Below, in pieces: positions 6,960 through 23,061 of a stretch of 64,000 nt of DNA. This DNA is from Variovorax paradoxus. GTDB lineage: Bacteria; Pseudomonadota; Gammaproteobacteria; Burkholderiales; Burkholderiaceae_C. Below the pieces are notes generated by a model, which searched no databases, was not told the origin of the DNA, and was given only the letters and a program-made list of their open reading frames with translations. Made by a program: the position numbers and the translations under genes. The stretch covers positions 124,001-188,000 of the forward strand of contig NZ_CP091716.1 in the NCBI RefSeq assembly GCF_022009635.1. Reading direction: 5' to 3'. The stretch's first letter is position 1, and each line of letters opens with the position of its first letter.

Positions 6960-7601
6960 ATGACCGACGAAACCCTGCTGCCCAAGCGCTACCACCACGG
7001 CTCACTGCCCGAAGCCCTGCTGGCCGCGGCCGAAGCCGTGCTGCTGCGCGATGGCATTTCGGGGCTGGGCCTGCGGGCGATCGCGCGCGAGGCGGGTGTG
7101 TCGCACACCGCGCCCAAGCACCATTTCGACGACACGACCGGGCTGGTGAGCGAACTCGCGGCGGTCGGCTATCGGCGCCTGGGCGACGCGATGCGCGATG
7201 CGGCCGCCGGCAGCACCGAGACGCGCGAGCGGCGCAATGCCATCGCCCGCGCGTATGTGCACTTCGCCCACGACAACCCGGCCATGTTCGGCCTGATGTT
7301 CCGCAACGAAAAGATCGACATGGAGCGCCCGGCCCTGTCGGAAGCCTCGCACGAGGCGATGCGGGTGATGGCCGCCGTCATCGGCGCGAGGAACGAGCCG
7401 CCGGGCGGCGCGCCGGTCTCATTGAGCAGCGGCGAGGCAATGCGCATCACCGCGGCCTGGGGCTATGTGCACGGGCTGGCGATCCTGCTGGTCGACCAGC
7501 GGCTGCGCGGCATCGTCAAGGTGGCGCCCGATTTCGAGAGCCCGATCGACCTGGTCGACAAGGCGCTGAGCGACGTGCGTTTCGGCTTCGAGGCGGGCTA
7601 G
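6960..7601 (+). CDS. TetR/AcrR family transcriptional regulator
   Basis: A 213-residue regulator. The N-terminal helix-turn-helix is clear: YHHGSLPEALLAAAEAVL...ISGLGLRAIAREAGVSHTAPKHHFDD (residues ~10-58). The C-terminal ligand domain resembles the WHG-type TetR C-terminal domain (HFAHDNPAMFGLMF, then WGYVHGLAILLVDQRL). It is divergent from the carotenoid oxygenase operon and flanked by twin palindromes, so it most likely represses that operon and itself in response to an unknown ligand. Confidence 0.9.
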   Translation: MTDETLLPKRYHHGSLPEALLAAAEAVLLRDGISGLGLRAIAREAGVSHTAPKHHFDDTTGLVSELAAVGYRRLGDAMRDAAAGSTETRERRNAIARAYVHFAHDNPAMFGLMFRNEKIDMERPALSEASHEAMRVMAAVIGARNEPPGGAPVSLSSGEAMRITAAWGYVHGLAILLVDQRLRGIVKVAPDFESPIDLVDKALSDVRFGFEAG

Positions 7602-8362
7602 GCGCGCTTCCAGTAGCGGTACTGCCAGCAGGTTTCGAAACCCGCGCGCTTGTACAACGCCAGTGCCGGCGGATTCGCCGCGTCGACCTGCAGGAACACC
7701 CGCTCGAAGCCGCGCGACATGGCCGCCTGCGCCAGGCCGGCCAGCACGCGCCCCGCCAGCCCCCGGCCGCGCTGCGCCTGGTCGGTGCGCATGCCGTGCA
7801 CGCTGCACCAGCCGTGGCCGAACGCCATTGCGCCGGCCGCCAGGGTACGGCCGTCTTCGCGCACGCTGGCGAACAGCGTGCCCTTGGCGCGCGACAGGGT
7901 ACGCACGCGGTGCGCGCCGTCCACCGGGTCGAAGCCTTCGCCGAGGAACAGCGCCGCCCAGGCGTCGTCGGGGGTGGTGTCGACATCGGCCGGCGCACCG
8001 CGCCCCTCGGCCACCTGCAGCATTCGCGGCGTCGAGCCGAGCTGCACCAGCGTCGGGTTGTCGCGGGCGTAGTGGCGTCGCTCCAGTTCGGCGCGCAGGC
8101 CGTCGAAACAATCGGCGTCGGCCAACCGCAGCAAAGGCACGGACTGGCGGCTGTCGTAGCGGTCTTCGATGCGGTCGAGGGTGGCCGCGTCGACCGCGCC
8201 GCGATGCAGCGGCACGGCGGATTTGGCGCGATTGACCGTGCCCTCGGCAAAGGGCAGCAGCCAGCCGTCGAGTTCTTCGGTGAGGTCGGGCGCCACCGCC
8301 GCGACGGTGGCGCGTTCGATGGCTTCGATGTCGGTTTCTGGGATCGGATTCATGAGCTTCAT
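7598..8362 (-). CDS. GNAT family N-acetyltransferase
   Basis: A 254-residue protein whose C-terminal half is a GNAT domain: GMRTDQAQRGRGLAGRVLAGL is the Q/RxxGxG/A acetyl-CoA motif, and ANPPALALYKRAGFE closes the fold. The N-terminal half (PDLTEELDGWLLPFAEGTVNRAKSAVP) matches the degenerate N-terminal GNAT-like domain of two-domain members. The ATG overlaps the stop codon of the upstream transglycosylase gene (ATGA), so this is the last gene of the exosortase operon. Its 3' end overlaps the tail of the convergent TetR gene by 4 nt. Confidence 0.85.
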   Translation of the reverse strand: MKLMNPIPETDIEAIERATVAAVAPDLTEELDGWLLPFAEGTVNRAKSAVPLHRGAVDAATLDRIEDRYDSRQSVPLLRLADADCFDGLRAELERRHYARDNPTLVQLGSTPRMLQVAEGRGAPADVDTTPDDAWAALFLGEGFDPVDGAHRVRTLSRAKGTLFASVREDGRTLAAGAMAFGHGWCSVHGMRTDQAQRGRGLAGRVLAGLAQAAMSRGFERVFLQVDAANPPALALYKRAGFETCWQYRYWKRA

Positions 8363-9627
8363 TGCGTGACGGCCTCGGGCGCCGTGAACTTCGCCGCGGC
8401 CACGCTCTTGAGCAGCGCCTCGCGCTGGTTCCTGTTGATGCCGCGGATGCTTTCGGCGACCCACTTGGTGCGGTCGGCGTCGATGTGGCCGTCGCGCCGC
8501 CATTGCTCGAGCACGGCCTGCGGCTTGTGCAGCATGGCCGCGAGCCACACGGCCTGCGCCGGCTCCAGCGTGCGCGCGCTGCGCTTGAAGTAGCGCCGCG
8601 CCGCCGCCTCGGCGCCGCAGATGCTGCCGCCCCACGGTGCGTTGTCGAGGTACAGCTGCAGGATGCGGGCCTTGCCCAGCGTCTGCTCCATCTCGACCGC
8701 GTAGAGCATCTCGCGCAGCTTGCGTTCGGCGGTGCGGTCGCTGCCCGTCACCAGCAGCTTGGCCAACTGCTGCGTGAGCGTGCTGCCGCCGCGCTTGGTC
8801 TGGCCCGGCTTCTGGTTGTTGTCGATCGACGCGAGGATCTCGGTCAGGTCGTAGCCGGCATGGGTGAAGAAGCGCTGGTCCTCGGCCGCGACCACCGCGC
8901 GCGCCAGCCAGCTGTCGTTGGTCAGCCTGGCCGACGGGCCGCAGCTGGTGCGGGCATTGAGCATGGCCTCGGTGCCCAGCCCCTCGACCGTGAACTGGCT
9001 GATGGTCGGCTGCACCGAGAAGGTGGCGTCGGGCAGCAGCAGCTGGCCGTGCAGCGCCAGGGTGCCGCCGATGCGCGCGCTGCGCAGCTCGGGCAGGGTG
9101 GGCACCAGCACCGCGTACCAGCGGGCGATGGGCGCATCTTCCACGTTGGCGCTGAGCTGCAGGCTCTTGGGCGTGAGCTTGCCCTCCCAGTGGCCGTGGA
9201 GCCGGGTCGTGTCGGTGCTCTCGGGCGTGGCCTCGAAGGTGCCGTTGAGCGTGTTGCCATCGCGCTTGACGGTGGCCACCAGCCGCTCGACCTTGATCGG
9301 CTGCGTGCCGAGCGCCGGCACCTCGGCACTGCAGGGGGCGCATTGCATTTCGAGCAGTTCGCCGGTCGGCTTCCAGGCGAAGCGCACGGCGCCGGCGCGG
9401 GTGTCGAACGAGCGCCCGTCCAGGTACGGTGCGAACCACGGCGAGGTGGCCACGCGCAATGCGGTGGGCACGCCGATCTCGAAATTCAGCGGGCCCGCCT
9501 TCACCGTGGTGCTCCATTCGCCGGCAGCCGGCGCGAGCGCCAGCTTGACTATCAAAAAGATAGCAATACACGCCGTGATGACAAGGGCCATCAGGCTGAA
9601 AAGCACAATACGCAGGGTCTTCTTCAC
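8359..9627 (-). CDS. MtgA-like monofunctional GT51 transglycosylase with extra N-terminal domain
   Basis: A 422-residue protein with one N-terminal transmembrane helix (residues ~5-30), about 180 residues of unassigned extracytoplasmic sequence, then a GT51 peptidoglycan glycosyltransferase domain. Signature motifs are VVAAEDQRFFTHAGYD (catalytic Glu), RGGSTLTQQLAKLL and the second catalytic region LREMLYAVEMEQTL...LQLYLDNAPWG. It lacks a transpeptidase domain. At 422 residues it is much longer than typical MtgA (about 240), because of the N-terminal domain. The GTG start at VKKTLRIVLF begins 11 nt after the EpsI-like stop. It belongs to the exosortase operon, so it may couple glycan polymerisation to surface-protein processing. 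Confidence 0.85.
   Translation of the reverse strand: MKKTLRIVLFSLMALVITACIAIFLIVKLALAPAAGEWSTTVKAGPLNFEIGVPTALRVATSPWFAPYLDGRSFDTRAGAVRFAWKPTGELLEMQCAPCSAEVPALGTQPIKVERLVATVKRDGNTLNGTFEATPESTDTTRLHGHWEGKLTPKSLQLSANVEDAPIARWYAVLVPTLPELRSARIGGTLALHGQLLLPDATFSVQPTISQFTVEGLGTEAMLNARTSCGPSARLTNDSWLARAVVAAEDQRFFTHAGYDLTEILASIDNNQKPGQTKRGGSTLTQQLAKLLVTGSDRTAERKLREMLYAVEMEQTLGKARILQLYLDNAPWGGSICGAEAAARRYFKRSARTLEPAQAVWLAAMLHKPQAVLEQWRRDGHIDADRTKWVAESIRGINRNQREALLKSVAAAKFTAPEAVTQ
9549..9563. repeat. Short palindrome CTATC-AAAAA-GATAG
   Basis: A 5-bp inverted repeat around an A5 spacer, lying inside the transmembrane-helix codons of the MtgA-like gene. A near-identical palindrome occurs at 40419-40435 in an intergenic gap, suggesting a dispersed short element. 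Confidence 0.45.
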
Positions 9628-9638
9628 AGGCTCGTTTC

Positions 9639-10208
9639 TCAGATCGGTCTCGCCACGGTGACAGCTTGCCACGGTCCATGCGATTGGCCGCTGGCAGCTG
9701 CCCAGTACCAGCTTGAAGTGTCTGTGAAAGCCGTGCCCCGGGCGTCGACGATGCGCTCGCAAACACGGATTTTTTGCGCGCCGTGCCGTTGCGCAACAAA
9801 ACAGCGCCACAAACGTTCCTGCGCGTCGCGTTCCAGCCGGGCCTGCTCGATGCGATAGCCCAGCGCGCGGTAGCAGTCGGCCGCCGGGTGCAGCATGCGG
9901 GTGGGCTGCTTCACCTCGCGCATCACCAGGGTCTGCGTGCCGTCGGTCATGCGGCCGATGGCACCCGGAAAGTTGTCGGCAAAGCGCTGCTCCACGTCGC
10001 TCAGTGCCAGTGGCCGCAGCGGCAGGCCGTCCCACTGGCTGGGCCATTCGTGCGACACGGCCACGGCCGGCGGCTCGGTGGGCGCACGCAGCGCCACGCC
10101 GGCCGACCACAGCATGCACAGCAGCATCGCCAGCGCGAAGGCCGACTTGTGGCCGATGCGGTTGATGAAATGGTTGGCGAGCCAGCGCTCAAAGAACGGT
10201 GTCGACAC
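9639..10208 (-). CDS. Exosortase-associated EpsI-like protein
   Basis: A 189-residue protein with an N-terminal hydrophobic anchor (HKSAFALAMLLCMLWSAGVAL, residues ~19-40) and a periplasmic domain with EpsI/DUF3485-like features: LHPAADCYRALGYRI (H-P-x-x-C motif) and a terminal TSSWYWAAASGQ. The GTG start was chosen because AAGGAGG lies 6 nt upstream. The gene overlaps the 3' end of the exosortase gene by 20 nt. EpsI-type proteins are usual companions of exosortases and are thought to assist sorting. Remote similarity only, so the family call is moderately sure. Confidence 0.7.
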   Translation of the reverse strand: MSTPFFERWLANHFINRIGHKSAFALAMLLCMLWSAGVALRAPTEPPAVAVSHEWPSQWDGLPLRPLALSDVEQRFADNFPGAIGRMTDGTQTLVMREVKQPTRMLHPAADCYRALGYRIEQARLERDAQERLWRCFVAQRHGAQKIRVCERIVDARGTAFTDTSSWYWAAASGQSHGPWQAVTVARPI

Positions 10209-11118
10209 GGCGGCCTCCTTGGGCGGTGATCAGGCCCGGAATGGGTTGTTCGGCGAGTCCGGGCACATGGCGCTCCGGCACCATGAGACGGGCGATGGCG
10301 CCGCACACGACGGCAAGCACCACCAGGCCCAGCGTGTTGTGCGCCCAGGGTGCCAGCGGATGGCCGGCGCCTTCGAAGGCAATCAGCAGGCTGTTGCGCA
10401 CGATGTTCCCGGCCAGCACCAGCAGGCCGACCATCGGCAGGCGGCGCAGGAAAGTCTGGTCGCCGCGGCGTGCCCACAGCGCCACCGCGCAGGCCGTGAA
10501 ATAGCCGAGCCAGACCATCTGCACGCCGGAGCAGGGCGCATCGACGATCACGAGGCGGCCGTCGACCATCAGGCTGGCGCCTTCACGCATCACCTCGAAG
10601 CCTGGCGCGAGCAGCCACCGGCTGGCCTCCGCCGTGACCACGCGCAGCGGATAGCCCGCATAGAACTGGAGCGACGACAGCAGCGGCAACGCCAGCACCG
10701 CGAGCCCCGCCAGCGGCAGCCTGCCCACGTTGCGCGGCAGGAAAGCCAGCAGTCCGCAGGCCAGCGCCAGCACGGCCACCAGCCCGGCCGCCAGCGGCGG
10801 CAGCGCGGGCAGGCCGCCGAGCCCTGTGCGCAGCAAGGTCGCGAGCACCGTGCCCGCGCCCGCCAGCGCGAGCCAGCCCAGCCGCGGCGAGGCGCGCAGT
10901 TCACGCCGGCGGTTCCAGGTCAACGCGGCCAGCGCGACCAGTGCCAGCAAGCCCAGCGGATCGTCGGAGCCGTCGCGCATGCGCTGGACCATCCAGGCCC
11001 AGGTCGGCATCAGCGCCAGGAATTGCAGGCCGAGCCAGCCTGCGGCCGGCGCGCGGTCGATGAAGATGCCCCAGTCGACGATGCGCGGGTGACGATGGGC
11101 AAGTGCTGCCAGAGACAT
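10189..11118 (-). CDS. Exosortase (PEP-CTERM sorting transpeptidase)
   Basis: A 309-residue polytopic membrane protein with about eight to nine hydrophobic helices. The exosortase/archaeosortase triad is complete: Cys196 in VDAPCSGVQMVWLGYF, Arg241 in GNIVRNSLLIAFEG, and His260 in WAHNTLGLVVL. Exosortases cleave C-terminal PEP-CTERM tails in the inner membrane. The gene lies 19 nt after a gene whose product ends in such a tail, and 20 nt overlap links it to the EpsI-like gene. No exopolysaccharide genes or PEP-CTERM regulators are nearby, so it looks dedicated to one substrate rather than being the EPS-linked XrtA type. The subclass needs a profile search. Confidence 0.9.
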   Translation of the reverse strand: MSLAALAHRHPRIVDWGIFIDRAPAAGWLGLQFLALMPTWAWMVQRMRDGSDDPLGLLALVALAALTWNRRRELRASPRLGWLALAGAGTVLATLLRTGLGGLPALPPLAAGLVAVLALACGLLAFLPRNVGRLPLAGLAVLALPLLSSLQFYAGYPLRVVTAEASRWLLAPGFEVMREGASLMVDGRLVIVDAPCSGVQMVWLGYFTACAVALWARRGDQTFLRRLPMVGLLVLAGNIVRNSLLIAFEGAGHPLAPWAHNTLGLVVLAVVCGAIARLMVPERHVPGLAEQPIPGLITAQGGRRVDTVL

Positions 11119-11137
11119 TCTTTTCTTTCTCGGTGGT

Positions 11138-13198
11138 TCAGGCAGTGAAGCGGCGCGCGTCGTTGCGGCGGGCCCGGCGGCGCAGCATGGCGAGCATCGA
11201 CAGCACGACGGCGATGGCGCCCAGCGTTTCGGGTTCGGGCGTGCTCGGCACTTCGGCGCCGAGCGCCAGCTCGCTCACGCCTTGCGGAAGAGGCAAGGGC
11301 TGGTTCACGTCCACGCTGTTCTGCGGCGCCAGGTTGCGCACCACCTTGTCGACGGCGATGAAGCTCGTGTACTGGGTGAGCAGGCTGTATTTCAGGCCCA
11401 GTTCGGTGATGCGTTCCTTGAAGGCGGTGCCGCCTTCCAGCGTTTCCTGGTCGCTCAGGCTCTGGATGCGGTGACGCGCCCAGAGCGTGCGCAGTGCCGC
11501 CGTGTCCTGGCGGGTGCGGTCGTCGATGCGCACTTCCTGGCGATAGGGGCCGTTGGCGCCCAGGCCTTCGATGATCACGCGGCCTTTTGCTTCACCGCGC
11601 CACTTGCCGAACACGATCACCGGGCGTTCGCCGAGCACGTCGGGCAGGGCCTGCGGCTCCACGTCGTACACGTCGAGCCCGCCGAAAGTGGCCTTCACGT
11701 TCGTGAGCACCGGCGACTCGACCATGCGGCGAAAACGCGCGGCCTGCTCAGGCGCCTGGATCGGGTCGGTGATGATGAAGGGCTCGCCCATGCCGGCGCG
11801 CGCAATGCCTTCCATCAGGCTGCGGTTCACCGACGAGCCGATACCGAAGGCGAACACGTTGGCCTTCGACAGGTTCTTGCGCACCAGCTCGAAGGCTTCG
11901 CGCTCGACCGTCACGTAGCCGTCGGTGACGACCACCACGGTGCGCGACACCTTGTCCTCCTTCGGCTCGGCATACACGCGCTTGAGCGCGGGAATCAGCT
12001 CGGTGCTGCCGCTGCCGCTGTAGTTCTGGATGGTGGCCAGCGCCTGTTCGATGTTGGCGCGCGTGGCCGGCACCGACTTGGGCGAGAGCATCTTGTTGCT
12101 GCCCGAGAACAGCAGCACGTTGAAGGTGTCGCTCGGACGCAGGCCGCCGATCAGGCGCTCGAGCACCGTCTTCGCGGTGTCGAGCGGAAAGCCGTGCATC
12201 GAGCCCGAGATGTCGACCACGAAGATGTAGTCGCGCGGCGAGATGGCGCTGGCGGCCACGGCCTTGGGCGGCTCGACCATCGCGAGGAAGAAGTTCTCCG
12301 CGTTCTCGCCCTGGCCCTTGTAGAGCATCAGGCCCGATTCGATCTTTTCGCCGGCCAAGCGGTAATCGAGCACGAAGTCGCGGTTGTCCGCGGGGCGGCC
12401 GTCAGCCGTGAGCACGATGTCGGCGTGCTGGTCTTCGTCGCTCTTCTTCACGTCGATAGCGTGCGTGGTCGAACGGATTTCCTTCAGGCCCATCGGCGTG
12501 TCGATGCTGGCCCTGAGCTTGAAGCTGGTGCCGCTCGCCGCGCCTTCCGCGAGCGTGGGCTGCGCCACCCACTTGGCCTGCGCGTTGGACGACTGCGGGC
12601 TGTTGTAGCGCGGGCCCACCACCGTGGGGAACACGAACTCGTAGTTGCCCGACTGCGGCACCAGCAGCTCGGTGTAGCGCAGCTCCACCTTCACGTCATC
12701 GCCCGGCAGGATATTGGCGACGTTCATCTGGAACACGTTGGGCAGGTGCTGCTCGAGCAGCGCGGCGGTCTTGCCTTCTTTCTTGGCCGTGTCGTATTCG
12801 ATCTGCGCCTGTTGCTTCTCCCGGATCTGCGCGGTGATGAGCCGGTCGGCCAGCCGCACGTTGAGGCCGCTCACGGCCGCCTTGGTCGAGCCCGGGAAAA
12901 CATACTTGGCCTCGATGGCGCGCCGGCCTTCGTTGCGATAGGTCTGCGTGACCGTCACGTCGGCGATCACGCCCGAGATCTTCACGGCCACCTCGGTGCC
13001 CTTCAGGGGCAGGCGGTCGACCGAGGGGTCGTCGCTCTTGACGAAGAAATACGGGCTTTCCGTCTTCAGGCGCGGGCCGGCGGGCGCTTCCTGCGCATGC
13101 AGCGGGCGCACGCCCAATGCGACGAAGCCCGCGGTCGCCAGGCTCACGGTGGCGAGCCAGAGCCAGCGGCCGGGGCGTGGAGTGGAGGGGGCATTCAT
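11138..13198 (-). CDS. VIT-VWA surface protein with C-terminal PEP-CTERM sorting signal
   Basis: A 686-residue exported protein. Residues 1-36 are a signal peptide (RWLWLATVSLATAGFVALG...LHAQ). A VIT (vault protein/inter-alpha-trypsin) domain spans about 55-185 (ISGVIADVTVTQTYRNEG; YVFPGSTKAAVSGL). A VWA domain begins near 322 with an intact MIDAS, VVDISGSMHG (DxSxS, Asp329). The tail is a PEP-CTERM: PEP at 654-656, a short hydrophobic helix, then RRRARR. The gene is first in an operon with exosortase, EpsI-like and transglycosylase genes, and its upstream region has a perfect CreB box. VIT-VWA proteins with sortase signals occur in dedicated sortase systems of marine gammaproteobacteria; this would be the exosortase counterpart. 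The ligand is unknown. Confidence 0.9.
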   Translation of the reverse strand: MNAPSTPRPGRWLWLATVSLATAGFVALGVRPLHAQEAPAGPRLKTESPYFFVKSDDPSVDRLPLKGTEVAVKISGVIADVTVTQTYRNEGRRAIEAKYVFPGSTKAAVSGLNVRLADRLITAQIREKQQAQIEYDTAKKEGKTAALLEQHLPNVFQMNVANILPGDDVKVELRYTELLVPQSGNYEFVFPTVVGPRYNSPQSSNAQAKWVAQPTLAEGAASGTSFKLRASIDTPMGLKEIRSTTHAIDVKKSDEDQHADIVLTADGRPADNRDFVLDYRLAGEKIESGLMLYKGQGENAENFFLAMVEPPKAVAASAISPRDYIFVVDISGSMHGFPLDTAKTVLERLIGGLRPSDTFNVLLFSGSNKMLSPKSVPATRANIEQALATIQNYSGSGSTELIPALKRVYAEPKEDKVSRTVVVVTDGYVTVEREAFELVRKNLSKANVFAFGIGSSVNRSLMEGIARAGMGEPFIITDPIQAPEQAARFRRMVESPVLTNVKATFGGLDVYDVEPQALPDVLGERPVIVFGKWRGEAKGRVIIEGLGANGPYRQEVRIDDRTRQDTAALRTLWARHRIQSLSDQETLEGGTAFKERITELGLKYSLLTQYTSFIAVDKVVRNLAPQNSVDVNQPLPLPQGVSELALGAEVPSTPEPETLGAIAVVLSMLAMLRRRARRNDARRFTA

Positions 13199-13303
13199 GG
13201 CGGTGTCCTTGTCCGTGCGAACTTGCACGGACATGAATGTCGGCACCGCGCGAGAAGCCAGTTGGAAGGCTCCTTGAAGTCGAACGAGGCGCTTTCCCGC
13301 TGT

Positions 13304-13410: not shown

Positions 13411-14874
13411 ATGCTTCAGTTGTTGAAGGCCTTGCAGAGTTCGATGCTGGTCAAGGTGGCCGGCCTGTTCTTCCTGCTGTTGCTGCTGTGCATTCCGCTG
13501 GCGGAAATCGATTCGATCAACCGCGAGCGCGGCGAGAGCCAGCGCGAAGCGGCCCGCGAACTCGCCGCCACCTATGCCGGCCGCCAGACAGTGGTCGGCC
13601 CGCTGCTGCTGGTGCCGTATGTCGAGCGATGGATGGAACCGCTGCGCAACGCGCAGGGCAAGGTGATCGGCCAGGAGCCGCGCAGCAAGGAAATGGCTCA
13701 TGTGGTGTTTCCGGACAAGCTGCACATCGAAGGCACGATGGCGCCGCAGGAGCGCTACCGCGGCATCTTCAGGATTCCGTTCTACACACTGAACGCCACG
13801 CTCGGCGGCGGCTTCGCCGCTTTCGACCCGAAGGCCGTGTCGCACAGCGAGACCGATTCGAAGATCGAGTTCAAGGCGCCCTTCATCGCTTTCAACGTGA
13901 GCGACCTGCGCGGCCTCGACGGCTCGCCCGCGATGGTGATGGGCGGCGAGGCGCTTCGCTTCAGGCAGCGCGTGCCCGGCCTGGCCGACGACGCATGGTT
14001 CGCCGACGGCATCCACGCGCCCGTCACCGGCGCCGCGCTCGCCGCATGGCAGGCCGGCACGCCGGTCGCCTTCGAAATGAAGATCGGCCTCGTCGGGCAG
14101 GACACGCTGGCCATCGCTCCCATTGCCGAGGAAACCACCGCGCACCTCACTTCGCCCTGGGCGCATCCGAGCTTCGGCGGCCGCTTCCTCGCGGCGGAGC
14201 GCAGCGTGACGCCGCAAGGCTTCGATGCGCACTGGCGCGTGTCGTCGCTCGTCACGTCGGCGCGCGAGCAGGTGCGTTCCGGTCTTTCGGGCCGTGGCGG
14301 CCCCGCCGACGGCGACACGGCCGATGTGGTCAGCGCGAACGCCACGACCGCCAACGCGCCGCGCCGCAACATGGGTCCGCTGCAGACCTTCGACGTGTCG
14401 CTCGCGCAGCCGATCAACGTCTATTCGATGAGCACGCGCGCGGGCAAGTACGGCGCGCTCTTCATCGGCCTGGTGCTGATGGCCGCCTTCATGTTCGAGC
14501 TGTTCCGAAAGCTGCGGCTGCATCCGATCCAGTACGGGCTGGTGGGCCTGTCGATCGCGCTGTTCTTCCTGCTGCTGCTCGCGCTGTCCGAGAAGTTCGC
14601 GTTCTGGATGGCCTACGCCGGTGCCGCGACGGCCAGCGTGGTGCTGCTGGCCGTGTATTTCAGCGCGGTGCTGGAAGGCTGGCGGCGCGGGCTGTCGTTC
14701 GGTGCCTTCGTGGCGCTGCTGTATGGCGCGCTCTATGGTCTGCTCGCATCGGAAAGCAATGCGCTGCTGCTGGGCGCGTTGCTGATCTTCGGCATGCTGG
14801 CCGTGCTGATGCTCGTCACGCGCAAGGTCGACTGGTATGCGCTTTCGCGCCGTACGGACAACGCGCCGGCATGA
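13411..14874 (+). CDS. creD: Inner membrane protein CreD
   Basis: A 487-residue protein of the CreD family. One N-terminal membrane helix (LFFLLLLLCIPLAEIDSINRERGESQREA) is followed by a large extracytoplasmic domain containing GGRFLAAERSV and NVYSMSTRAGKYGALFIGLVLMAAFMFELFRKL, then five further helices (VGLSIALFFLLLLALSE onward). CreD is the hallmark target of the CreBC two-component system and is linked in Pseudomonas to beta-lactam and envelope stress. GGAG sits 12 nt before the ATG, and CreB-box-like sequences lie upstream. The stop codon overlaps the start of the GH3 gene (ATGA). creBC lies 6 kb away on the other strand. Confidence 0.93.
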   Translation: MLQLLKALQSSMLVKVAGLFFLLLLLCIPLAEIDSINRERGESQREAARELAATYAGRQTVVGPLLLVPYVERWMEPLRNAQGKVIGQEPRSKEMAHVVFPDKLHIEGTMAPQERYRGIFRIPFYTLNATLGGGFAAFDPKAVSHSETDSKIEFKAPFIAFNVSDLRGLDGSPAMVMGGEALRFRQRVPGLADDAWFADGIHAPVTGAALAAWQAGTPVAFEMKIGLVGQDTLAIAPIAEETTAHLTSPWAHPSFGGRFLAAERSVTPQGFDAHWRVSSLVTSAREQVRSGLSGRGGPADGDTADVVSANATTANAPRRNMGPLQTFDVSLAQPINVYSMSTRAGKYGALFIGLVLMAAFMFELFRKLRLHPIQYGLVGLSIALFFLLLLALSEKFAFWMAYAGAATASVVLLAVYFSAVLEGWRRGLSFGAFVALLYGALYGLLASESNALLLGALLIFGMLAVLMLVTRKVDWYALSRRTDNAPA

Positions 14875-16163
14875 AAGCCTTGCGGGTCGTCGCCGGAGCA
14901 CTGGGCTGGCTTGCCCTGGCCGCGCTGTGGTTCTGGGCGTGGCACCTGAAAGACCCGCATCTGCGTTTCATGCGCGAGTGGGAACTGAGCTTGCTGCTGG
15001 GAGTGCTCACAGCCGGCATCGCCGTCGCATGGCGATTCGCGCGCGGCAGGCTGCGTCCCGTGGCGCTGGGCCTGGCCTTCGCGGCCTTGCTCACGGCCCT
15101 GGGCAACGAAGCTGCGTCGCGCCAGCACCGGGCCGAAGTCGAAGCCGCGTCGGGCCCCGTGGCGCAGGCGCTCGGCGCGCGCTTCATCGTCGGTTATGAC
15201 GATGCGGCGCAGCTGCGCGACCGCGTCCGCAAGGGGCTGATCGGCGGCATTTTCGTGACCGGCCGTAATGTGAAAGGCCGCACCGCCGCCGAACTGCGCG
15301 ATGAAATCGCCGGCCTGCAGGCGCTGCGCCGCGAAGCCGGGCTGCCGCCGCTGGTGGTCGCGACCGACCAGGAGGGCGGCGCCGTCTCGCGGCTGTCACC
15401 ACTGGTCGAGCCGCAACCCGCATTGGCCACGCTGCTCGATGCGGACGTGTCCGACGAAGAACTCGCGCAACGCGCCCACGCCTACGGCGCACGACAAGGC
15501 AGGGCGCTCGCCGCTTTAGGCATCACGCTCAATTTCAGCCCGGTGGTCGACCTGCGCCCCGGCCGTGCGCCGGGCCGCTGGGACTTTCACACCCGCATCG
15601 ACGAACGCGCCATTTCGGCCGACCCGGCAGTCACCGCACAGGTAGCGCTCGCTTACGAGCTGGGCCTTGAATCGGCTGGCGTTCGCGGCACGCTCAAGCA
15701 CTTTCCGGGACTGGCCGGCGTGACCGAGGACACCCATCATTTCGCCGCCGTGCTGCACACGCCGGCGGCCCGGCTTGCAACACATGACTGGAAACCATTT
15801 CAAGAAGTGTCGAAACAATCTGACGCAGCGATCATGCTGGGCCATGTGATCCTTCCGGAACTCGACGCGGAACATCCGGTCTCTTTCTCGCGCAGAATCG
15901 TGCGGCAGGTGATTCGGGGCGAGTGGGGCTACCAGGGCCTGCTCGTCACAGACGACCTCACGATGGGCGCGGCCTACAACCGCGGTCTTTGCGACGCCAC
16001 CGTCCGCGCCCTCGGCGCCGGGGTGGATCTGCTGCTGATCGCCTACGACCACGACAAGTACTTCGACGCCATGCACTGCGCGCTGCAGGCCGCGCAGCGC
16101 GGCGCACCCGATCTCCTGTTGCCGGAACGCGACGACGCGCGGCGGCTCCAATCTTCTCGCTAG
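14871..16163 (+). CDS. Membrane-anchored glycoside hydrolase family 3 (NagZ-like) protein
   Basis: A 430-residue protein. Three N-terminal transmembrane helices (about 5-24, 39-56 and 62-80) precede a GH3 catalytic domain. Visible motifs are FIVGYD, ATDQEGGAVSRL, NFSPVVDL, the KHFPGLAGVTEDTHH catalytic loop with its Asp-His dyad, and the nucleophile region LLVTDDLTMGA. This is the beta-N-acetylglucosaminidase (NagZ) type. Usual NagZ is cytosolic and about 340 residues; here positive charges (RFARGRLRP) between helices two and three favour a periplasmic catalytic domain. It is translationally coupled to creD, so I infer a role in peptidoglycan-fragment processing during CreBC-sensed stress. 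Confidence 0.87.
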   Translation: MKALRVVAGALGWLALAALWFWAWHLKDPHLRFMREWELSLLLGVLTAGIAVAWRFARGRLRPVALGLAFAALLTALGNEAASRQHRAEVEAASGPVAQALGARFIVGYDDAAQLRDRVRKGLIGGIFVTGRNVKGRTAAELRDEIAGLQALRREAGLPPLVVATDQEGGAVSRLSPLVEPQPALATLLDADVSDEELAQRAHAYGARQGRALAALGITLNFSPVVDLRPGRAPGRWDFHTRIDERAISADPAVTAQVALAYELGLESAGVRGTLKHFPGLAGVTEDTHHFAAVLHTPAARLATHDWKPFQEVSKQSDAAIMLGHVILPELDAEHPVSFSRRIVRQVIRGEWGYQGLLVTDDLTMGAAYNRGLCDATVRALGAGVDLLLIAYDHDKYFDAMHCALQAAQRGAPDLLLPERDDARRLQSSR

Positions 16164-16183: not shown

Positions 16184-18586
16184 ATGTCCAAACGCTCAAG
16201 CTCCACCCCTCCCGACGACGACGGTTCCGCGCCCGCCGATCCGAACCGCCGCTGGAAACGCATTGCCGGATGGGGTGCCGTGGTGGTGGGTTCCGGCGCG
16301 CTGGTGGTGCTGGTCGCCGCCATCGTGGCCGTGGTCGCCATCTATCCGAAGCTGCCGGATGTTTCGGCGCTGTCCGACTACCGCCCCAAGCTGCCGCTGC
16401 GCGTGTATTCGGCCGAGGGCCAGATGATCGGCGAGTTCGGCGAAGAGCGCCGCAACCTCACGCCGTTCGCGAACATCCCGAAGGTCATGAAAGACGCGGT
16501 GCTGGCCGTGGAAGACGCGCGCTTCTACGACCACGGCGGCGTCGACTACAAGGGCTTCCTGCGCGCGGCCGTCGCCAGCCTGAAGGGCGGACGCAAGCAG
16601 GGCGCCTCGACCATCACGATGCAGGTCGCGCGCAACGTGTACCTGAGCTCGGAGCGGACCATGAGCCGCAAGACCTACGAGATATTGCTCGCGCTGCGGC
16701 TCGAGCAGCAGCTCACCAAGGACCAGATCCTGGAGATCTACCTGAACCAGATCTACCTGGGCAACCGCGCCTACGGTTTCGCCGCCGCCGCCGAAACCTA
16801 CTTCGGCAAGCCGCTGCAGGACGTGACCATCGCCGAGGCCGCCATGCTGGCCGGTCTGCCGAAGGCACCGGGCGCGAACAACCCCGTGGCCAACCCGCGC
16901 CGCGCGCGGGCGCGCCAGCTCTACGTAATCGACCGCATGCAGGAAACCGGCTTCATCACCGCCGAGCAGGCGGCAGCGGCGAAGAAGGAAGAACTTCACC
17001 TGCGCGATGCCGCCGACCCGAACCGGCTGCATGCCGAATACGTGGCCGAAACCGTGCGCCAGATGATGTACGCGCAGTACGGCGACAGCATCTACACCAG
17101 CGGCCTGAAGGTCTACACCTCGCTGGTCGCGGCCGACCAGGCCGCCGCCTACAAGTCGCTGCGCAAGGGCATCATGGACTACGAGCGCCGCCAGGCCTAC
17201 CGCGGCCCCGAGAAGTTCGTCGACCTGCCGACCGAGCAGAAGGAAGTCGACGAGGCCGTCGACGACGCGCTGGCCGAACACCCCGACAACGGCGACGTGA
17301 TCGCGGCCGTGGTGCTCGATGCCAATCCGAAGGAAATCAGCGCCGTGCGCGCCAACGGCGAAACCATCCAGATCACCGGCGATGGTCTGAAGCCCGCCCA
17401 GTCGGGCCTTGCCGCCAAGGCACCGCCCAACATCAAGATCCGCCGCGGCGCGGTGATCCGCGTCGCGAAGACGCCGAAGAACACCTGGGAGATCACGCAG
17501 CTGCCCGAGGTCGAGGCCGCCTTCATCGGCATGGACCCGCGCTCCGGCGCCATCAAGGCGCTGGTCGGCGGCTTCGATTTCGGCAAGAACAAGTTCAACC
17601 ACGTGACCCAGGCCTGGCGGCAGCCGGGTTCGAGCTTCAAGCCCTTCATCTATTCGGCCGCGCTCGAAAAAGGCTTCACGCCCGCCACCGTGGTGAACGA
17701 CGCGCCGCTGTACTTCGACCCCAGCGCCAACGGCGGCCAGCCGTGGGAGCCGAAGAACTTCGAAGGCACCTACGAAGGCCCGATGCCGCTGCGCACCGCG
17801 CTCATGAAGTCGAAGAACCTGGTGACGCTGCGCGTGCTGCAGTCCATCGGCGCGCCCTATGCGCAGGACTGGGTCACGAAGTTCGGCTTCGACAAGGACA
17901 AGCAGCCCGCCAACCTGCCGATGGGCCTGGGCGCCGGCTCGGTCACGCCGATGCAGATGGCCGTGGGCTATTCGGTGTTCGCCAACGGCGGCTACCGCGT
18001 CAACCCGTACCTCGTGACGAAGGTGACCGACATGAAGGGCAAGGTCCTCATGGAAACCGAGCCGCCGGTGCTCGACGAATCGCGCCGCGCCATTCCACAG
18101 CGCAACGCCTTCATCATGAGTTCGCTGCTGCAGAGCGTGGTGCGCAACGGCACCGGCTTCAAGGCCTACCAGGCGCTCAAGCGCGACGACCTCTACGGCA
18201 AGACCGGCACCACCAACGATTCCTTCGACACCTGGTTCGCGGGCTTCCAGCCGACCATGGTCGGCGTGGCCTGGGTCGGCTACGACACGCCGCGTCAACT
18301 GGGCGTGCGAGGCGAAACCGGCGGCAGCCTGAGCCTGCCGATCTGGACCGGCTACATGCAGACCGCGCTGCAGGGCGTGCCCATGACGCAGCCGGCCGAA
18401 CCGCCGGGCGTGGTGCGCATCGACGGCGAGCTGTACTTCGACGACTTCACGCCGGGCCACAACGTGGCCAGCCTGGGACTGGACAGCACCGAGGCGCCGC
18501 AGCCGGTCGAGGAACTCACGAGCGCGCCGATCGGCGCGCCCCCGCCGCCCGAGGAACGCAACAAGATCCTCGATTTCTTCCGCTAG
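16184..18586 (+). CDS. mrcA: Penicillin-binding protein 1A, bifunctional glycosyltransferase/transpeptidase
   Basis: An 800-residue class A PBP. A single N-terminal transmembrane helix (about 29-53) is followed by GT51 motifs VLAVEDARFYDHGGVD (Glu110) and QGASTITMQVARNVYL. The OB-like linker is followed by the transpeptidase domain, with SSFK (Ser483), SKN (in LMKSKNLVTLR) and KTG (Lys673 in GKTGTTN). It polymerises and crosslinks peptidoglycan at the inner membrane. It starts 20 nt after the GH3 gene, so it may be read through from creD, which would put three cell-wall genes in one stress-responsive transcript. Confidence 0.96.
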   Translation: MSKRSSSTPPDDDGSAPADPNRRWKRIAGWGAVVVGSGALVVLVAAIVAVVAIYPKLPDVSALSDYRPKLPLRVYSAEGQMIGEFGEERRNLTPFANIPKVMKDAVLAVEDARFYDHGGVDYKGFLRAAVASLKGGRKQGASTITMQVARNVYLSSERTMSRKTYEILLALRLEQQLTKDQILEIYLNQIYLGNRAYGFAAAAETYFGKPLQDVTIAEAAMLAGLPKAPGANNPVANPRRARARQLYVIDRMQETGFITAEQAAAAKKEELHLRDAADPNRLHAEYVAETVRQMMYAQYGDSIYTSGLKVYTSLVAADQAAAYKSLRKGIMDYERRQAYRGPEKFVDLPTEQKEVDEAVDDALAEHPDNGDVIAAVVLDANPKEISAVRANGETIQITGDGLKPAQSGLAAKAPPNIKIRRGAVIRVAKTPKNTWEITQLPEVEAAFIGMDPRSGAIKALVGGFDFGKNKFNHVTQAWRQPGSSFKPFIYSAALEKGFTPATVVNDAPLYFDPSANGGQPWEPKNFEGTYEGPMPLRTALMKSKNLVTLRVLQSIGAPYAQDWVTKFGFDKDKQPANLPMGLGAGSVTPMQMAVGYSVFANGGYRVNPYLVTKVTDMKGKVLMETEPPVLDESRRAIPQRNAFIMSSLLQSVVRNGTGFKAYQALKRDDLYGKTGTTNDSFDTWFAGFQPTMVGVAWVGYDTPRQLGVRGETGGSLSLPIWTGYMQTALQGVPMTQPAEPPGVVRIDGELYFDDFTPGHNVASLGLDSTEAPQPVEELTSAPIGAPPPPEERNKILDFFR

Positions 18587-19281: not shown

Positions 19282-20733
19282 TCAGTGACTCCGCCCCGGA
19301 TGTGACAACAACGGCAACGTGAGCGTCGCCACCGCACCGCCGCGCGACGCGTTGCCCAGCTCGATGCGCCCGCGGTGCAAGGCCGCGATTTCCTTCACGA
19401 ACGCCAGCCCGAGCCCGGTGCTTTTCTTCTTGCTGTCCGGCCTGGCCAGCGAATAGAACTTCTGGAAAACCTTTTCCTGCGCGTACTCCGGAATGCCCGG
19501 TCCGTGGTCGCGCACGCTCACGCGCGCCAGCCTCGAAGTGGTTTCCAGCGTGAGCAGCACCTCGCTGTCGCGCGGTGAAAAATCGATCGCGTTGTCCAGC
19601 AGGTTGCTGATCGCGCGGCGCAGCAAGAAGGGGTCGCCTTCCGTGCTGGCTTCGCTGCGGATGTTCACCAGCAGCCTGATGTTGCGCTTGGCCGCCGCGG
19701 GCTGGGCGCTGATGGCGATGTCGTCGATCAGCGAAGCCAGCGCCACGGGCTCGGTGCGGTCGAGCGCGCGCCGCGTCTCGAGCGCGGTGAGTTCCATCAT
19801 GCGGTCGACGATTTCCTGGATGCGCTGCGTCTCCCGCTCGATGTTCTTCAGAAAGCGTTCGCGCTCGGGGTGCGGCATCGACGGTTCCTGCAGCAGCTCG
19901 GCCGCGCCGCGGATGGCGGAGAGCGGGCTCTTCACTTCGTGGGTGAAGGTCTGCACGTAGTCGGCCACGTAGTTGCGTCCCGTCAGTGCATCGCGCATTT
20001 CGCTGAAGCCGCTGCGCACGCCGTCGATGGCGCGGCGCACCATGCGCGACAGGCTCAGGGTGCGCTGCGCGCGCACCCAGGTCCAGTAGTCGCGGATCAG
20101 CCCGAAGGGCCGCACCAGCCACACCGACACGATCACCGCCAGCAGCAGCAGCGCCAGCCCCGAGCCCACGCCGACCCACAGCGTGCGCGCCCGCGCGTCT
20201 TCCACGAACTGGCCGAAGCTCTGCACCGGCTTGCCGACGCTGACCATGCCGACGATCTCGTTGTTCCAGCGTATCGGCGCGCCGACGTACATGACCGAGG
20301 TGCGCGGATCGCCGTCGACGTCGCGCGAAGTGCGCGCGCCATAAAGGCCGGCGAGCGTGCGGCTCACGTCCATCCACTGCGAATAGTCGGCGCCCAGGTG
20401 CCTGCCGAGCGAATCGAACATCACGCGGCCGTTGCGGTCGGTCACGTACACGCGCAGTTCGACCTGGCTCTTGTGCAGGTTGTAGATCTGCGCCGAGAAC
20501 TCGCGCGCATAGGCGGTGCGAAACAGCGGCTCGAGCCGCGCGGTGTTGATGGCGCCGGCGATCACGTCCTGCTCGACCAGGCTGGCCAGCAGCTGCGAGG
20601 TCTCGACCAGCGATTCTTCCGCCGACTCGCGGTAGCGCGGGTCGATGTCCGAGACCACGCGGTACAGCAGGAAAGCGATGCCCGCCGTGTAGATCAGCAG
20701 GATGCCGATGAATATGCGCGTGCGCCTGGTCAC
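19282..20733 (-). CDS. creC: Two-component sensor histidine kinase CreC
   Basis: A 483-residue membrane kinase. Two transmembrane helices (about 6-25 and 187-208) bound a periplasmic sensor region of about 160 residues with the CreC-type MYVGAPIRWNNEIVGMVSVGKP. The dimerisation box is FTHEVKSPLSAIRG (His265), then N-box NLLDNAIDF, DHGPGIP and GLGLAFVKEI ATP-binding motifs. The GTG start overlaps the creB stop (GTGA). CreC responds to envelope perturbation or carbon status in other bacteria. With creD and a perfect CreB box at 13.3 kb, orthology is well supported. Confidence 0.93.
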   Translation of the reverse strand: MTRRTRIFIGILLIYTAGIAFLLYRVVSDIDPRYRESAEESLVETSQLLASLVEQDVIAGAINTARLEPLFRTAYAREFSAQIYNLHKSQVELRVYVTDRNGRVMFDSLGRHLGADYSQWMDVSRTLAGLYGARTSRDVDGDPRTSVMYVGAPIRWNNEIVGMVSVGKPVQSFGQFVEDARARTLWVGVGSGLALLLLAVIVSVWLVRPFGLIRDYWTWVRAQRTLSLSRMVRRAIDGVRSGFSEMRDALTGRNYVADYVQTFTHEVKSPLSAIRGAAELLQEPSMPHPERERFLKNIERETQRIQEIVDRMMELTALETRRALDRTEPVALASLIDDIAISAQPAAAKRNIRLLVNIRSEASTEGDPFLLRRAISNLLDNAIDFSPRDSEVLLTLETTSRLARVSVRDHGPGIPEYAQEKVFQKFYSLARPDSKKKSTGLGLAFVKEIAALHRGRIELGNASRGGAVATLTLPLLSHPGRSH

Positions 20734-21524
20734 GGCGCCTTGGCTGGCAATTCTTCGTTCAGTGCATAGCCGGTGCCGCGCAGGGTGCGGATCGGCTCGA
20801 CATCCGGCGCAACCGCCTTGAGCTTGGCGCGCAGGGTCTTGATGTGCGCGTCGACCGTGCGGTCGAAGCTGTCGCTGGCGTCGTCCCAGACCAGTTCGAG
20901 CAGTTCGTCGCGGGTGAACACGCGCCCTGGACGCTGCACCAGCAGTTTCAGCAGGCCGTATTCGTAGCGCGAGAGTTCGAGCAGGCGCCCGTAATAGCGG
21001 ATCTGCATCCGCTCGCTGTCCAGCGAAAACGGCATTGCAGGGGGTTGGGGGGTCGCTGGAGACGCGTGAGTGCCGATTTGATGGGGTACCCCATGGTTCG
21101 GTGCTGAAGCCATTCCCGGGCTTCCTGACGCGTTTCTGGCACTGCGCCGCAGGATGGTCCGTACGCGGGCGACCAGCTCGCGTGGAGAAAACGGCTTGGC
21201 AATGTAGTCGTCTGCGCCCAGTTCCAGGCCCACCACGCGGTCTATTTCGTCGCTGCGGGCGGTCAAAAAGACCATCGGCACCTCCGGCCCGCCCATCGAC
21301 TGATTCAGCGCCTGGAGGCGTTTGAAGAGTTCGAAGCCGTTGAGATCGGGCAATCCGATGTCCAGGATGGCCAGCGCGGGCGGTTCCTGGGCGAACTGCG
21401 CGATCGCCTCCTCGGCCGTGGCGCACCAGATGGGCGTGAAACCGTCGCTTTTCAGGACGTACTGCAGCGTGTCGGCGATGCCCGATTCGTCTTCGGCGAT
21501 CAGGATCCGGGGTTTGAAGCTCAT
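20730..21524 (-). CDS. creB: Two-component response regulator CreB
   Basis: A 264-residue OmpR-family regulator. The receiver domain has IAEDES, the phospho-acceptor Asp55 (AILDIGLPDLNG) and KPFSPRELVAR. The C-terminal winged helix (RVFTRDELLELVWDD...RTVDAHIKTLRAKLK...IRTLRGTGYALNE) binds DNA. The interdomain linker is unusually long: residues ~129-165 are low-complexity (Ala/Pro/Gly/His) and make the protein about 30 residues longer than typical CreB. The linker DNA contains a perfect 14-bp palindrome. The gene is followed by overlapping creC. The candidate replication origin lies directly upstream. Confidence 0.93.
   Translation of the reverse strand: MSFKPRILIAEDESGIADTLQYVLKSDGFTPIWCATAEEAIAQFAQEPPALAILDIGLPDLNGFELFKRLQALNQSMGGPEVPMVFLTARSDEIDRVVGLELGADDYIAKPFSPRELVARVRTILRRSARNASGSPGMASAPNHGVPHQIGTHASPATPQPPAMPFSLDSERMQIRYYGRLLELSRYEYGLLKLLVQRPGRVFTRDELLELVWDDASDSFDRTVDAHIKTLRAKLKAVAPDVEPIRTLRGTGYALNEELPAKAP
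21081..21094. repeat. Perfect 14-bp palindrome ATGGGGTACCCCAT in the creB linker
   Basis: The palindrome sits in the middle of the extra linker codons of creB (residues ~143-147). Its location in the only non-conserved part of the gene suggests a small inserted repeat that kept the reading frame. Confidence 0.5.
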
Positions 21525-22101
21525 CCCGCGGATGTTACCGACGGGGGACCGCGCCGGGAGGACCGGTTTTCGACCAAGGCGCCGGGGCCGGCGCGGCCTT
21601 TCGCGGCTTTTTTTTCGGGCGAGGCTTGTCCCTTTCCCATCTTCTTATTCTTCTTATTCAAATTAGTAGTAGTAGATAAGGGTCGGCCTCCTCTGTGGAC
21701 ATGCCGCTTTTTTCGTTATGTGACAACGACTTGTCATGCACGCGTCACTGTGCGTAGCCGCGCTTTCGCGATGTACCCGGCAAATGAACAACTTTGGGTA
21801 ACCCGACCGCGCTGTGGATAACCGATGGCTTGTGCCACAACTGTCCCCAGAGTTGTCCTTTGACACCCCCTTGGAAATCTGCGAAAGACGTTTTTCGGGC
21901 AGGGAAATACATTGCGCAAAAATGAGGCAGTCTGTAGATTTCCCTTGTAAATCAACAGCTTGCAACGGCCCTACATAAAAGCTCCAACGTTATCCACAGA
22001 GTTGCTCAAGTTTTGTGGGGAGAACGTGCCCGAATGAGGCCGCGCCGTCGCAGGCAAGAAAACCCAGCCCTTCTTCACCTCCGAATTGCGAAATATCGAA
22101 A
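21525..22101. other. Candidate chromosomal replication origin (AT-rich, DnaA boxes, DnaA-trio-like run)
   Basis: This 577-bp gap is strikingly AT-richer than its surroundings and has no convincing gene. It holds two perfect DnaA boxes, TGTGGATAA at 21813-21821 and TTATCCACA at 21990-21998, in opposite orientations. A two-mismatch box, TGTGGACAT, lies at 21694-21702. Left of that box come a GC-rich spacer (21681-21691), then TAGTAGTAGTAG (21664-21675) with an AT-rich TTCTTATTC tandem (21642-21659). This box/GC-rich/TAG-repeat/AT-rich order is the DnaA-trio unwinding arrangement described for bacterial origins. parS sites and parAB 18-24 kb away fit. dnaA is not present, so the call rests on motifs alone. 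Confidence 0.6.
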
Positions 22102-23061
22102 ATGACACCTTCTGAAACACAGGCCATCGTGACCCTCAGCCTGCTGGCGGCCTTCGTCGACGGCGAAAAGCACGAACGCGAGCGCGCCGAGATCAAGCGG
22201 ATCGCGGAAGGTCTGTCCCAGGCCGACGGCCTGAACCTGCCCACGCTCTACCAGGACGTGCTGATGAAGCGCGTGTCGCTGGCGTCGGTGGCGGGAGAAC
22301 TGAAGAGCACCGAGTCGCGGCAGCTCGCCTATGAAATGGCGGTGTGCGTGTGCGACGCCGACGGCACGCAGTCGGATTCGGAGCGCATGTTCCTGGCGGA
22401 CGTGCGCACCTCGCTGGGGCTGGATGCCTCGGCGGCCGTTTTTTCTCAGCGGGCGGAGGAAATCGCGGCGGTGCCGGTGGCGGCGACGGCGGCAACCGCC
22501 GCGGCGGCCGGCACGGCGGTGGCCACCGCTGCTGCGAATTCACCCGACAGCGCCGAGCTCGACAAATCGATCCTCAACGCCGCCATCCTCAACGGCGCGC
22601 TCGAGCTGCTGCCCGAGACGCTGTCGACGATGGCGATCATTCCGCTGCAGATGAAGCTGGTCTACCGCATCGGCCAGGCTTACGGCTACCAGCTGGACAG
22701 CGGCCACATCAAGGATTTCCTGGCCACGGTCGGCGTGGGCCTGACCTCGCAGTACCTGGAACAGGCAGGGCGCAAGCTGCTCGGCGGCTTGCTGGGCAAG
22801 GTGGGCGGCGGCCTGTTGCGCGGGCTGGGCAACCAGGCCGTGAGTTCGGGAATGAGCTTCGCCTCGACCTATGCGCTGGGCCACGTGGCCAAGCGCTATT
22901 ACGCCGGCGGCCGCACGCTTTCGACGCAGATGCTGAAAGATGCGTTCTCCGGCGTGGTGAAGGAAGGGCAAAGCCTGCAGACGCAGTACCTGCCGGCGAT
23001 CCAGGAAAAGGCCCGCACGCTGGATGCGGGCAAGGTGCTGTCATTGGTGCGGGGCGCCTGA
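22102..23061 (+). CDS. TerB-like / DUF697-like membrane-associated protein
   Basis: A 319-residue protein. Residues 1-125 resemble the helical TerB (tellurite-resistance B) fold (IVTLSLLAAFVDGEKHERERAEIKRIAEGL; CDADGTQSDSERMFL). An Ala-rich linker (about 133-160) is followed by a Gly-rich amphipathic C-terminal region (RIGQAYGYQL...GLLGKVGGGLLRGLGNQAVSSGMSFASTYALGHVAKRYYAGG) of the YcjF/DUF697 type. The start MTPSETQ is taken because TerB-like sequence begins immediately after; an in-frame GTG at 22015 would add residues encoded by the origin region. Function unknown, likely an envelope or stress protein. Confidence 0.8.
   Translation: MTPSETQAIVTLSLLAAFVDGEKHERERAEIKRIAEGLSQADGLNLPTLYQDVLMKRVSLASVAGELKSTESRQLAYEMAVCVCDADGTQSDSERMFLADVRTSLGLDASAAVFSQRAEEIAAVPVAATAATAAAAGTAVATAAANSPDSAELDKSILNAAILNGALELLPETLSTMAIIPLQMKLVYRIGQAYGYQLDSGHIKDFLATVGVGLTSQYLEQAGRKLLGGLLGKVGGGLLRGLGNQAVSSGMSFASTYALGHVAKRYYAGGRTLSTQMLKDAFSGVVKEGQSLQTQYLPAIQEKARTLDAGKVLSLVRGA

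Follow-up and report, generated by a model that had tools for sequence, protein, structure and literature searches.

Does a bacterium keep an exosortase for one neighbouring protein, and if so, under what control? The question is raised by a 64-kb stretch of Variovorax paradoxus DNA (the window; bases 124001–188000 of contig 1, NZ_CP091716.1, in a genome of 7.95 Mb on two contigs), in which an earlier note had described an exosortase dedicated to an adjacent VIT-VWA protein with a PEP-CTERM sorting tail. The observation is confirmed and its interpretation partly supported. All five genes of the tight leftward operon that it described are present on the minus strand (7598–13198), neighbours overlapping or sitting within 20 bp of one another. 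Upstream lies a conserved candidate binding site for the response regulator CreB, whose gene and that of its partner kinase CreC are close by. We think it probable, if well short of certain, that the locus is a single-substrate exosortase module belonging to the CreBC envelope-stress response.

The exosortase falls squarely within class Q (XrtQ), scoring far above the cut-off of the NCBIfam profile (Table 1), with less than 50 bits each from the XrtT, XrtO and XrtN models. It is thus the genuine exosortase that had been claimed, with the correction that its class already has a name, and at the enzyme level we see no difference from that class. A literature search on XrtQ or exosortase Q returned no exosortase paper by title. 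The catalytic residues read earlier as intact, Cys196, Arg241 and His260, are invariant among 42 aligned XrtQ proteins picked for diversity and at least 97% conserved among 111 XrtQ sequences. The enzyme's predicted structure has a mean pLDDT (predicted local distance difference test score) of 88.3, and comparison of this model turned up no solved counterpart. Its EpsI-like neighbour aligns with the C-terminal half of the exosortase T model (38.4 bits, below that cut-off) and has no match in a Pfam scan. The two are fused in one frame in 11 of 110 loci, which argues that they act together. The closest named relatives of the exosortase are from Variovorax, at no more than 89% identity in the best segment. 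XrtQ is rare outside its own family, passing the cut-off in 5 of 398 genomes of a phylum sample (4 of them from the window's family) and in 2 of 369 of a class sample, the own genome counted in both.

The proposed target carries the signal peptide, VIT and VWA domains and tail ascribed to it. Its C terminus combines a PEP motif, a hydrophobic helix and a basic end, and passes the PEP_CTERM model TIGR02595 (17.7 bits, cut-off 16; 22.1 bits in the genome scan). Residues D329, S331, S333, T399 and D426, which we take to be the DxSxS, T and D of a metal-ion-dependent adhesion site (MIDAS), are at least 97% conserved in 110 sequences, and the segment leading into the tail, PLPxGV...VPxTPEP, is also well conserved. 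In 109 readable tails beside XrtQ (duplicates included, as two locus sets overlap), the motif reads TPEP in 105, APEP in 1, TPEA in 2 and TPEQ in 1; the glutamate is therefore kept in all 109 and the full P-E-P in 106.

Two VIT-VWA paralogues were met in other settings. One in genome G015 (L158:4465-7143) scores 690 bits to the window protein and has a C-terminal OmpA domain in place of a PEP-CTERM tail, so that the same head exists with another envelope anchor. Another, in G126 (L157:3826-7921), has a different C-terminal membrane helix, is followed by another VWA protein and lies near a gene that by eye looks sigma-factor-like; the 12 kb fetched there gave no exosortase match.

Enzyme and target are paired in number as well as in place. 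The own genome encodes exactly one exosortase, and only one PEP-CTERM match exceeds the cut-off, the other six of the seven found at E ≤ 10 scoring 12.3–13.7 bits; many tails elsewhere in the genome had been named beforehand as what would speak against a dedicated enzyme. Among 80 named loci (1.27 Mb in total) the VIT-VWA gene adjoins xrtQ in 78, and the other two (L028 and L059) start at a contig end, a conservation that excludes a chance grouping of genes. Across 200 genomes of the same family, XrtQ exceeds its cut-off in 33 and gives partial matches in three (G148, G118 and G027). A VIT-VWA match of at least 580 bits is likewise found in 33, comprising 32 of the XrtQ genomes plus G118, so each has some XrtQ match; in the remaining XrtQ genome, G017, an assembly gap precedes the VIT-VWA C terminus. 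Genomes of the family without an XrtQ match have no VIT hit above 151 bits.

A census of tails in 31 of the 33 family XrtQ genomes (G040 and G104 left out; G163, 70% complete, kept) extends this pattern. The 18 in which XrtQ is the sole exosortase match have 0–4 PEP-CTERM matches at E ≤ 1, against 2–42 in the 13 with a further exosortase match, which in G146 is partial (35 bits). The difference is marked (Mann–Whitney p 3e-5, uncorrected for kinship, on matches not all of which exceed the cut-off). A second exosortase thus tends to bring its own targets, and XrtQ alone does not. Subject to the model missing divergent tails, this is a dedicated system in the sense of PMC3237569, one enzyme with one adjacent target. 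Its core module is VIT-VWA, XrtQ and EpsI.

A candidate answer to the question of control lies upstream of the VIT-VWA gene. The exact pattern TTCAC-N6-TTCAC occurs once in the window, on the operon strand (0.05 expected). This is the cre/blr tag, which activated CreB/BlrA needs in order to bind upstream of creD, the classical CreB target (PMC4689548). The creB and creC genes, whose products exceed their model cut-offs, lie 6–8 kb from the operon; tag and regulators together are what would be predicted of a CreBC regulon member. The 80 named loci hold 83 exact tags, 82 of which lie 60–300 bp upstream of VIT-VWA, with 0 on the other strand; the VIT-VWA start was estimated by counting 686 residues back from the stop codon. 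Of the 77 loci holding that region, 76 carry the exact tag, irrespective of whether creD is the neighbouring gene, and the tag of L087 has one mismatch. Among the 31 assessable family XrtQ genomes, 29 have an exact tag and two a tag with one mismatch (G188 and G079; loci L182 and L183). The pattern was checked on Escherichia coli cbrA, where its sole hit in 18 kb is the tag starting 62 bp upstream of the gene.

The tag is accompanied by a second repeat. CTTC-N7-CTTC occurs within 60 bp downstream of it in 98 of 107 regions (duplicates included) and upstream in 0 of 107, with about 0.1 expected from letter shuffles of the same regions. In relatives this block starts mostly 13–17 or 23–27 bp past the tag. 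A second genomic tag with a near-identical core (G000:C1:4512771-4512786, L122) lies upstream of a gene for a geranylgeranyl-reductase-like FAD protein with remote resemblance to E. coli CbrA, and its 16-base tag occurs once in the relative G122.

CreB also co-occurs with XrtQ. It exceeds its cut-off in 31 of 33 XrtQ genomes, against 36 of 164 without XrtQ (among the matches listed, 70 of 71; three partial-XrtQ genomes set aside; Fisher p 3e-15, uncorrected for kinship), and in 25 of the 33 no more than 15 kb separates it from XrtQ. Two XrtQ genomes gave no CreB above the cut-off: in G146 a homologue is present at the locus all the same, the initial search having scored only part of that genome's candidates, and G104 is represented by a 3.3 kb contig of a genome 76% complete. 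In G882, from another family of the class, creB, creC, the cre-tag, VIT-VWA, XrtQ and EpsI form one run.

Elsewhere CreBC responds to damage to the cell wall. In Pseudomonas aeruginosa it is activated by loss of penicillin-binding protein 4 (PMC2654508), and in E. coli a strong induction of creD and cbrA-C follows exposure to colicin M, an enzyme that hydrolyses lipid II; cbrA is under CreBC control (PMC3599342). From these responses we infer, by analogy, a wall-stress role for the operon. The sign of control may differ, since in Stenotrophomonas creD is repressed by CreBC (PMC4689548). The peptidoglycan link that the earlier note had drawn from the glycosyltransferase rests more on CreBC, which it overlooked, than on GT51.

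The mechanism we propose starts from the observed gene content, catalytic motifs, one-to-one pairing, conserved tag and creBC linkage. CreC would sense an envelope disturbance, as in other species, and phosphorylated CreB would bind the cre-tag and probably the second CTTC repeat too. To judge from the conserved site, CreB would then switch on VIT-VWA, xrtQ, epsI and gt51 as one transcript. The signal peptide of VIT-VWA would direct its export, and the C-terminal helix would retain it in the inner membrane, where XrtQ and its EpsI-like helper may cut next to P-E-P (Cys196 with Arg241 and His260) and transfer the protein to an acceptor, so that it stays in the envelope, both steps by analogy with the exosortase/archaeosortase family. 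The VWA domain could then bind a ligand through its metal ion, and GT51, where present, may polymerise glycan strands in the same response.

Several observations weigh against this reading. Genome G148 keeps the cre-tag, creBC and XrtQ (269.2 bits, split over two contigs), and its VIT-VWA is an 84-residue remnant in which the signal peptide is joined to the last tail residues, without P-E-P. The assembly has 470 contigs, and that contig end carries poly-C and adapter-like sequence. If the assembly is correct, XrtQ either can persist for some time after its target is lost or has a further target; a remnant with a surviving XrtQ counts against a strict one-to-one rule. A tailless VIT-VWA protein beside a surviving exosortase had been sought as a contrary case, and G148 approaches it, set against the 106 of 109 that keep P-E-P. 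(The remnant lies at L211:1-760, between the cre-tag and the XrtQ start at the contig end.) G027 is without VIT-VWA and has XrtQ cut to about residues 11–132, with creB, creC and the cre-tag still there; G343 has VIT-VWA and an XrtQ–EpsI fusion, no tag near them, and CreB on another contig. The PEP_CTERM model gives nothing in G047 and G188, although both have VIT tails, and may therefore overlook divergent targets. A search of the whole own genome gives 8 tags where the reversed pattern gives 3, which makes the tag alone weak. Finally, GT51 was not found in L074, L079, L083, G343 or G882, the first three of which have sequence at that place.

What XrtQ does after recognising the tail admits other readings. 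It may only cut, removing the tail and freeing VIT-VWA to the periplasm or outer surface without a covalent anchor. The conserved active site suits a protease as well as a transpeptidase, and no acceptor is known, but the tail architecture and the wider family (LPXTG, PGF-CTERM), on established knowledge, suggest transfer to an anchor, and we regard cutting alone as unlikely.

We rate as quite unlikely an acceptor of the cell-wall kind, either a peptidoglycan precursor or a nascent glycan. XrtQ would then join VIT-VWA to a lipid II-like intermediate, and polymerisation of this intermediate by the operon's GT51 would incorporate the protein into the wall. GT51 stands beside XrtQ and EpsI in 76 of the 80 named loci, with a Transgly domain whose motif residues are conserved (E249, D250 and others invariant in 49 sequences). 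OmpA domains commonly bind peptidoglycan, and it is in such a domain that the G015 paralogue ends. The loci listed above in which GT51 was not found keep VIT-VWA, XrtQ and EpsI, however, and we know of no exosortase that uses a wall precursor. The wall-damage responses of CreBC (PMC2654508, PMC3599342) fit a wall acceptor, and the lipid anchoring by the related archaeosortase A (PMC7157517) speaks against one. GT51 is thus common in the module yet dispensable; the GNAT gene, which the earlier note also listed in the operon and which is present in 31 of the 80 loci, is outside the conserved module.

It is also improbable, in our estimate, that XrtQ acts on several targets, their tails escaping the PEP_CTERM model. 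The missed VIT tails of G047 and G188 and the persistence of XrtQ beside the G148 remnant would fit such a role, but the own genome has a single target above the cut-off, the 18 XrtQ-only genomes stay at 0–4 matches where a second exosortase comes with up to 42, and the long conserved segment before P-E-P points to a specialised substrate.

OmpR/PhoB-type regulators commonly bind 11-bp direct repeats, and a regulator of that type other than CreB might read the repeats here, whose period suits such binding. The second block lacks a full TTCAC, and the tags of L087, L182 and L183 have one mismatch each. We nevertheless think this very unlikely, as the core does not differ from the published cre/blr tag (PMC4689548) and matches the E. 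coli cbrA tag, and as 25 of 33 XrtQ genomes have creB no more than 15 kb away. That the box serves creD alone, the exosortase operon being a mere neighbour, is highly improbable: creD diverges from the same gap in the window, is found in 51 of the 80 loci and is the classical target (PMC4689548), but loci where creD is not the neighbour still have the tag, on the VIT-VWA strand.

The single-substrate module that we favour shares features with several known systems. The Gram-negative dedicated sortase system (TIGR03788 target, TIGR03784 sortase, TIGR03785/TIGR03787) likewise has a single VIT-VWA substrate, an adjacent enzyme and a nearby two-component system. It uses LPXTG, a class GN sortase and pdsR/pdsS, whereas the window has a TPEP (PEP-CTERM) tail, an exosortase and CreBC equivalogs; the window VIT-VWA protein scores 422.8 bits with TIGR03788, related yet below the cut-off of 551.65. 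The XrtN/VIT system (TIGR04476, TIGR04477) also pairs an exosortase with a VIT-domain target, and the window enzyme scores 36.6 with XrtN against a cut-off of 200. PEP-CTERM/EpsH systems share the tail architecture, an exosortase with eight transmembrane helices and EpsI downstream or fused (PMC1569441). They mostly have several targets, exopolysaccharide genes alongside and sigma-54 type sites upstream of many targets, unlike the window, with its one target above the cut-off, its cre-tag and no exopolysaccharide gene among the proteins scanned. One VIT/vWA family is described as bearing GlyGly-CTERM, LPXTG or PEP-CTERM tails in PMC3237569, which defined the dedicated system and already noted a VIT/vWA protein with a PEP-CTERM tail in Verrucomicrobium spinosum; the portion of it available to us mentions neither XrtQ nor CreBC.

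Related arrangements recur in five sister loci. In L176, L178, L226 and L227, XrtQ-like exosortases below the cut-off lie beside EpsI and large PEP-tailed membrane proteins related to the XrtN-system VIT protein (TIGR04477, 101–136 bits, cut-off 250), and L178, L226 and L227 have CreB/CreC-like genes nearby. In L179 (G455) an exosortase T (NF033770, 687.6 bits) with an EpsI-like half stands beside a VIT-VWA protein (TIGR03788, 434.9 bits) and a two-component kinase that scores best with the CreC family (155 bits, along almost the whole protein). Its exosortase class differs from the window's, and the 18 kb fetched there hold no cre-tag; none was found either in the stretches fetched of the other four. 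The scanned kinases of L179 and L226 and the regulator of L226 are below the CreB or CreC cut-offs. Resting on five loci, this recurrence suggests a general module. A bolder proposal, which we regard as a long shot, is that on CreBC induction VIT-VWA goes to a lipid-linked wall precursor or nascent strand polymerised by the co-transcribed GT51, and that the pairings of VIT, dedicated sorting enzyme and CreC-like kinase (XrtQ, XrtT, XrtN-like) are versions of a single module for anchoring under wall stress, with exchange of the anchoring enzyme. If true, XrtQ would be the first exosortase with a wall acceptor.

Table 1. Coordinates of the exosortase operon, its upstream sites and the neighbouring cre genes (positions in the window)
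Feature	Position	Strand	Basis or remark
VIT-VWA protein, 686 aa, ATG; signal peptide, VIT, VWA with MIDAS motif, PEP-CTERM tail	11138..13198	-	Pfam/NCBIfam matches
VIT domain, residues 65-175	12674..13006	-	PF08487, 117 bits
VWA domain, residues 325-475	11774..12226	-	PF13768 68.6 bits, PF00092 57.4 bits
PEP-CTERM sorting tail: TPEP, hydrophobic helix, basic cluster	11171..11242	-	TIGR02595 above cut-off; kept in relatives
Exosortase XrtQ, 309 aa, ATG; Cys196/Arg241/His260	10189..11118	-	NF012182 401.2 bits, cut-off 270
EpsI-like partner, 189 aa, GTG; conserved Cys112, Cys136, Cys150	9639..10208	-	Matches C-terminal half of XrtT
Monofunctional GT51, 422 aa, GTG; transmembrane helix, beta-rich N-terminal domain	8359..9627	-	PF00912 (Transgly) 153.7 bits
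GNAT acetyltransferase, ATG; ATGA overlap, last gene of run	7598..8362	-	Family matches
cre-tag (predicted CreB box) TTCACACAGACTTCAC, 105 bp upstream of VIT-VWA start codon	13304..13319	-	Pattern match
Second repeat block CTTC-N7-CTTC-N7-CTTC, 11-bp period, downstream of cre-tag	13254..13279	-	
CreD, divergent from VIT-VWA, same intergenic region	13411..14874	+	NF008712 466 bits, cut-off 275
GH3 family glycosidase, beta-N-acetylhexosaminidase-like; overlaps creD stop	14871..16163	+	PF00933 161.9 bits; context only
PBP1A-family penicillin-binding protein	16184..18586	+	TIGR02074 607 bits, cut-off 508.75; context only
CreC sensor kinase, GTG start	19282..20733	-	NF008312 578.7 bits, cut-off 356
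CreB response regulator	20730..21524	-	NF008296 306.5 bits, cut-off 273

Around these features, no exopolysaccharide family was found among the 10 neighbouring proteins scanned (1 of which had no match at all) or the scanned operon and cre genes, the rest of the window and genome lying outside that scan. At the far end of the operon the GNAT gene and an opposite-strand TetR-family gene overlap tail to tail by their 3' ends (7598–7601). Beside creBC lies a gene for a TerB-domain protein of 348 aa (22015–23061) with no NCBIfam match at E 0.001.

The enzyme class, the tail type and target family, and dedicated pairing are all of kinds already known. The new and most testable part, read from sequence, is the conserved candidate CreB box with its creBC linkage; we did not find the combination of exosortase, VIT-VWA and CreBC in print. 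To our knowledge the acceptor to which exosortases attach their substrates is still open, and among the exosortase papers listed, titles and opening lines of abstracts name none. In a genome that has a single exosortase with a single substrate, and for which an inducing signal can be predicted, the acceptor question is reduced to one protein band. Knowledge of CreBC comes mainly from creD and beta-lactam responses; the conserved cre-tag would add the anchoring of a surface protein to its outputs in Comamonadaceae-type bacteria. It would also offer a testable explanation of why VIT proteins repeatedly occur with a dedicated sorting enzyme and a two-component system.

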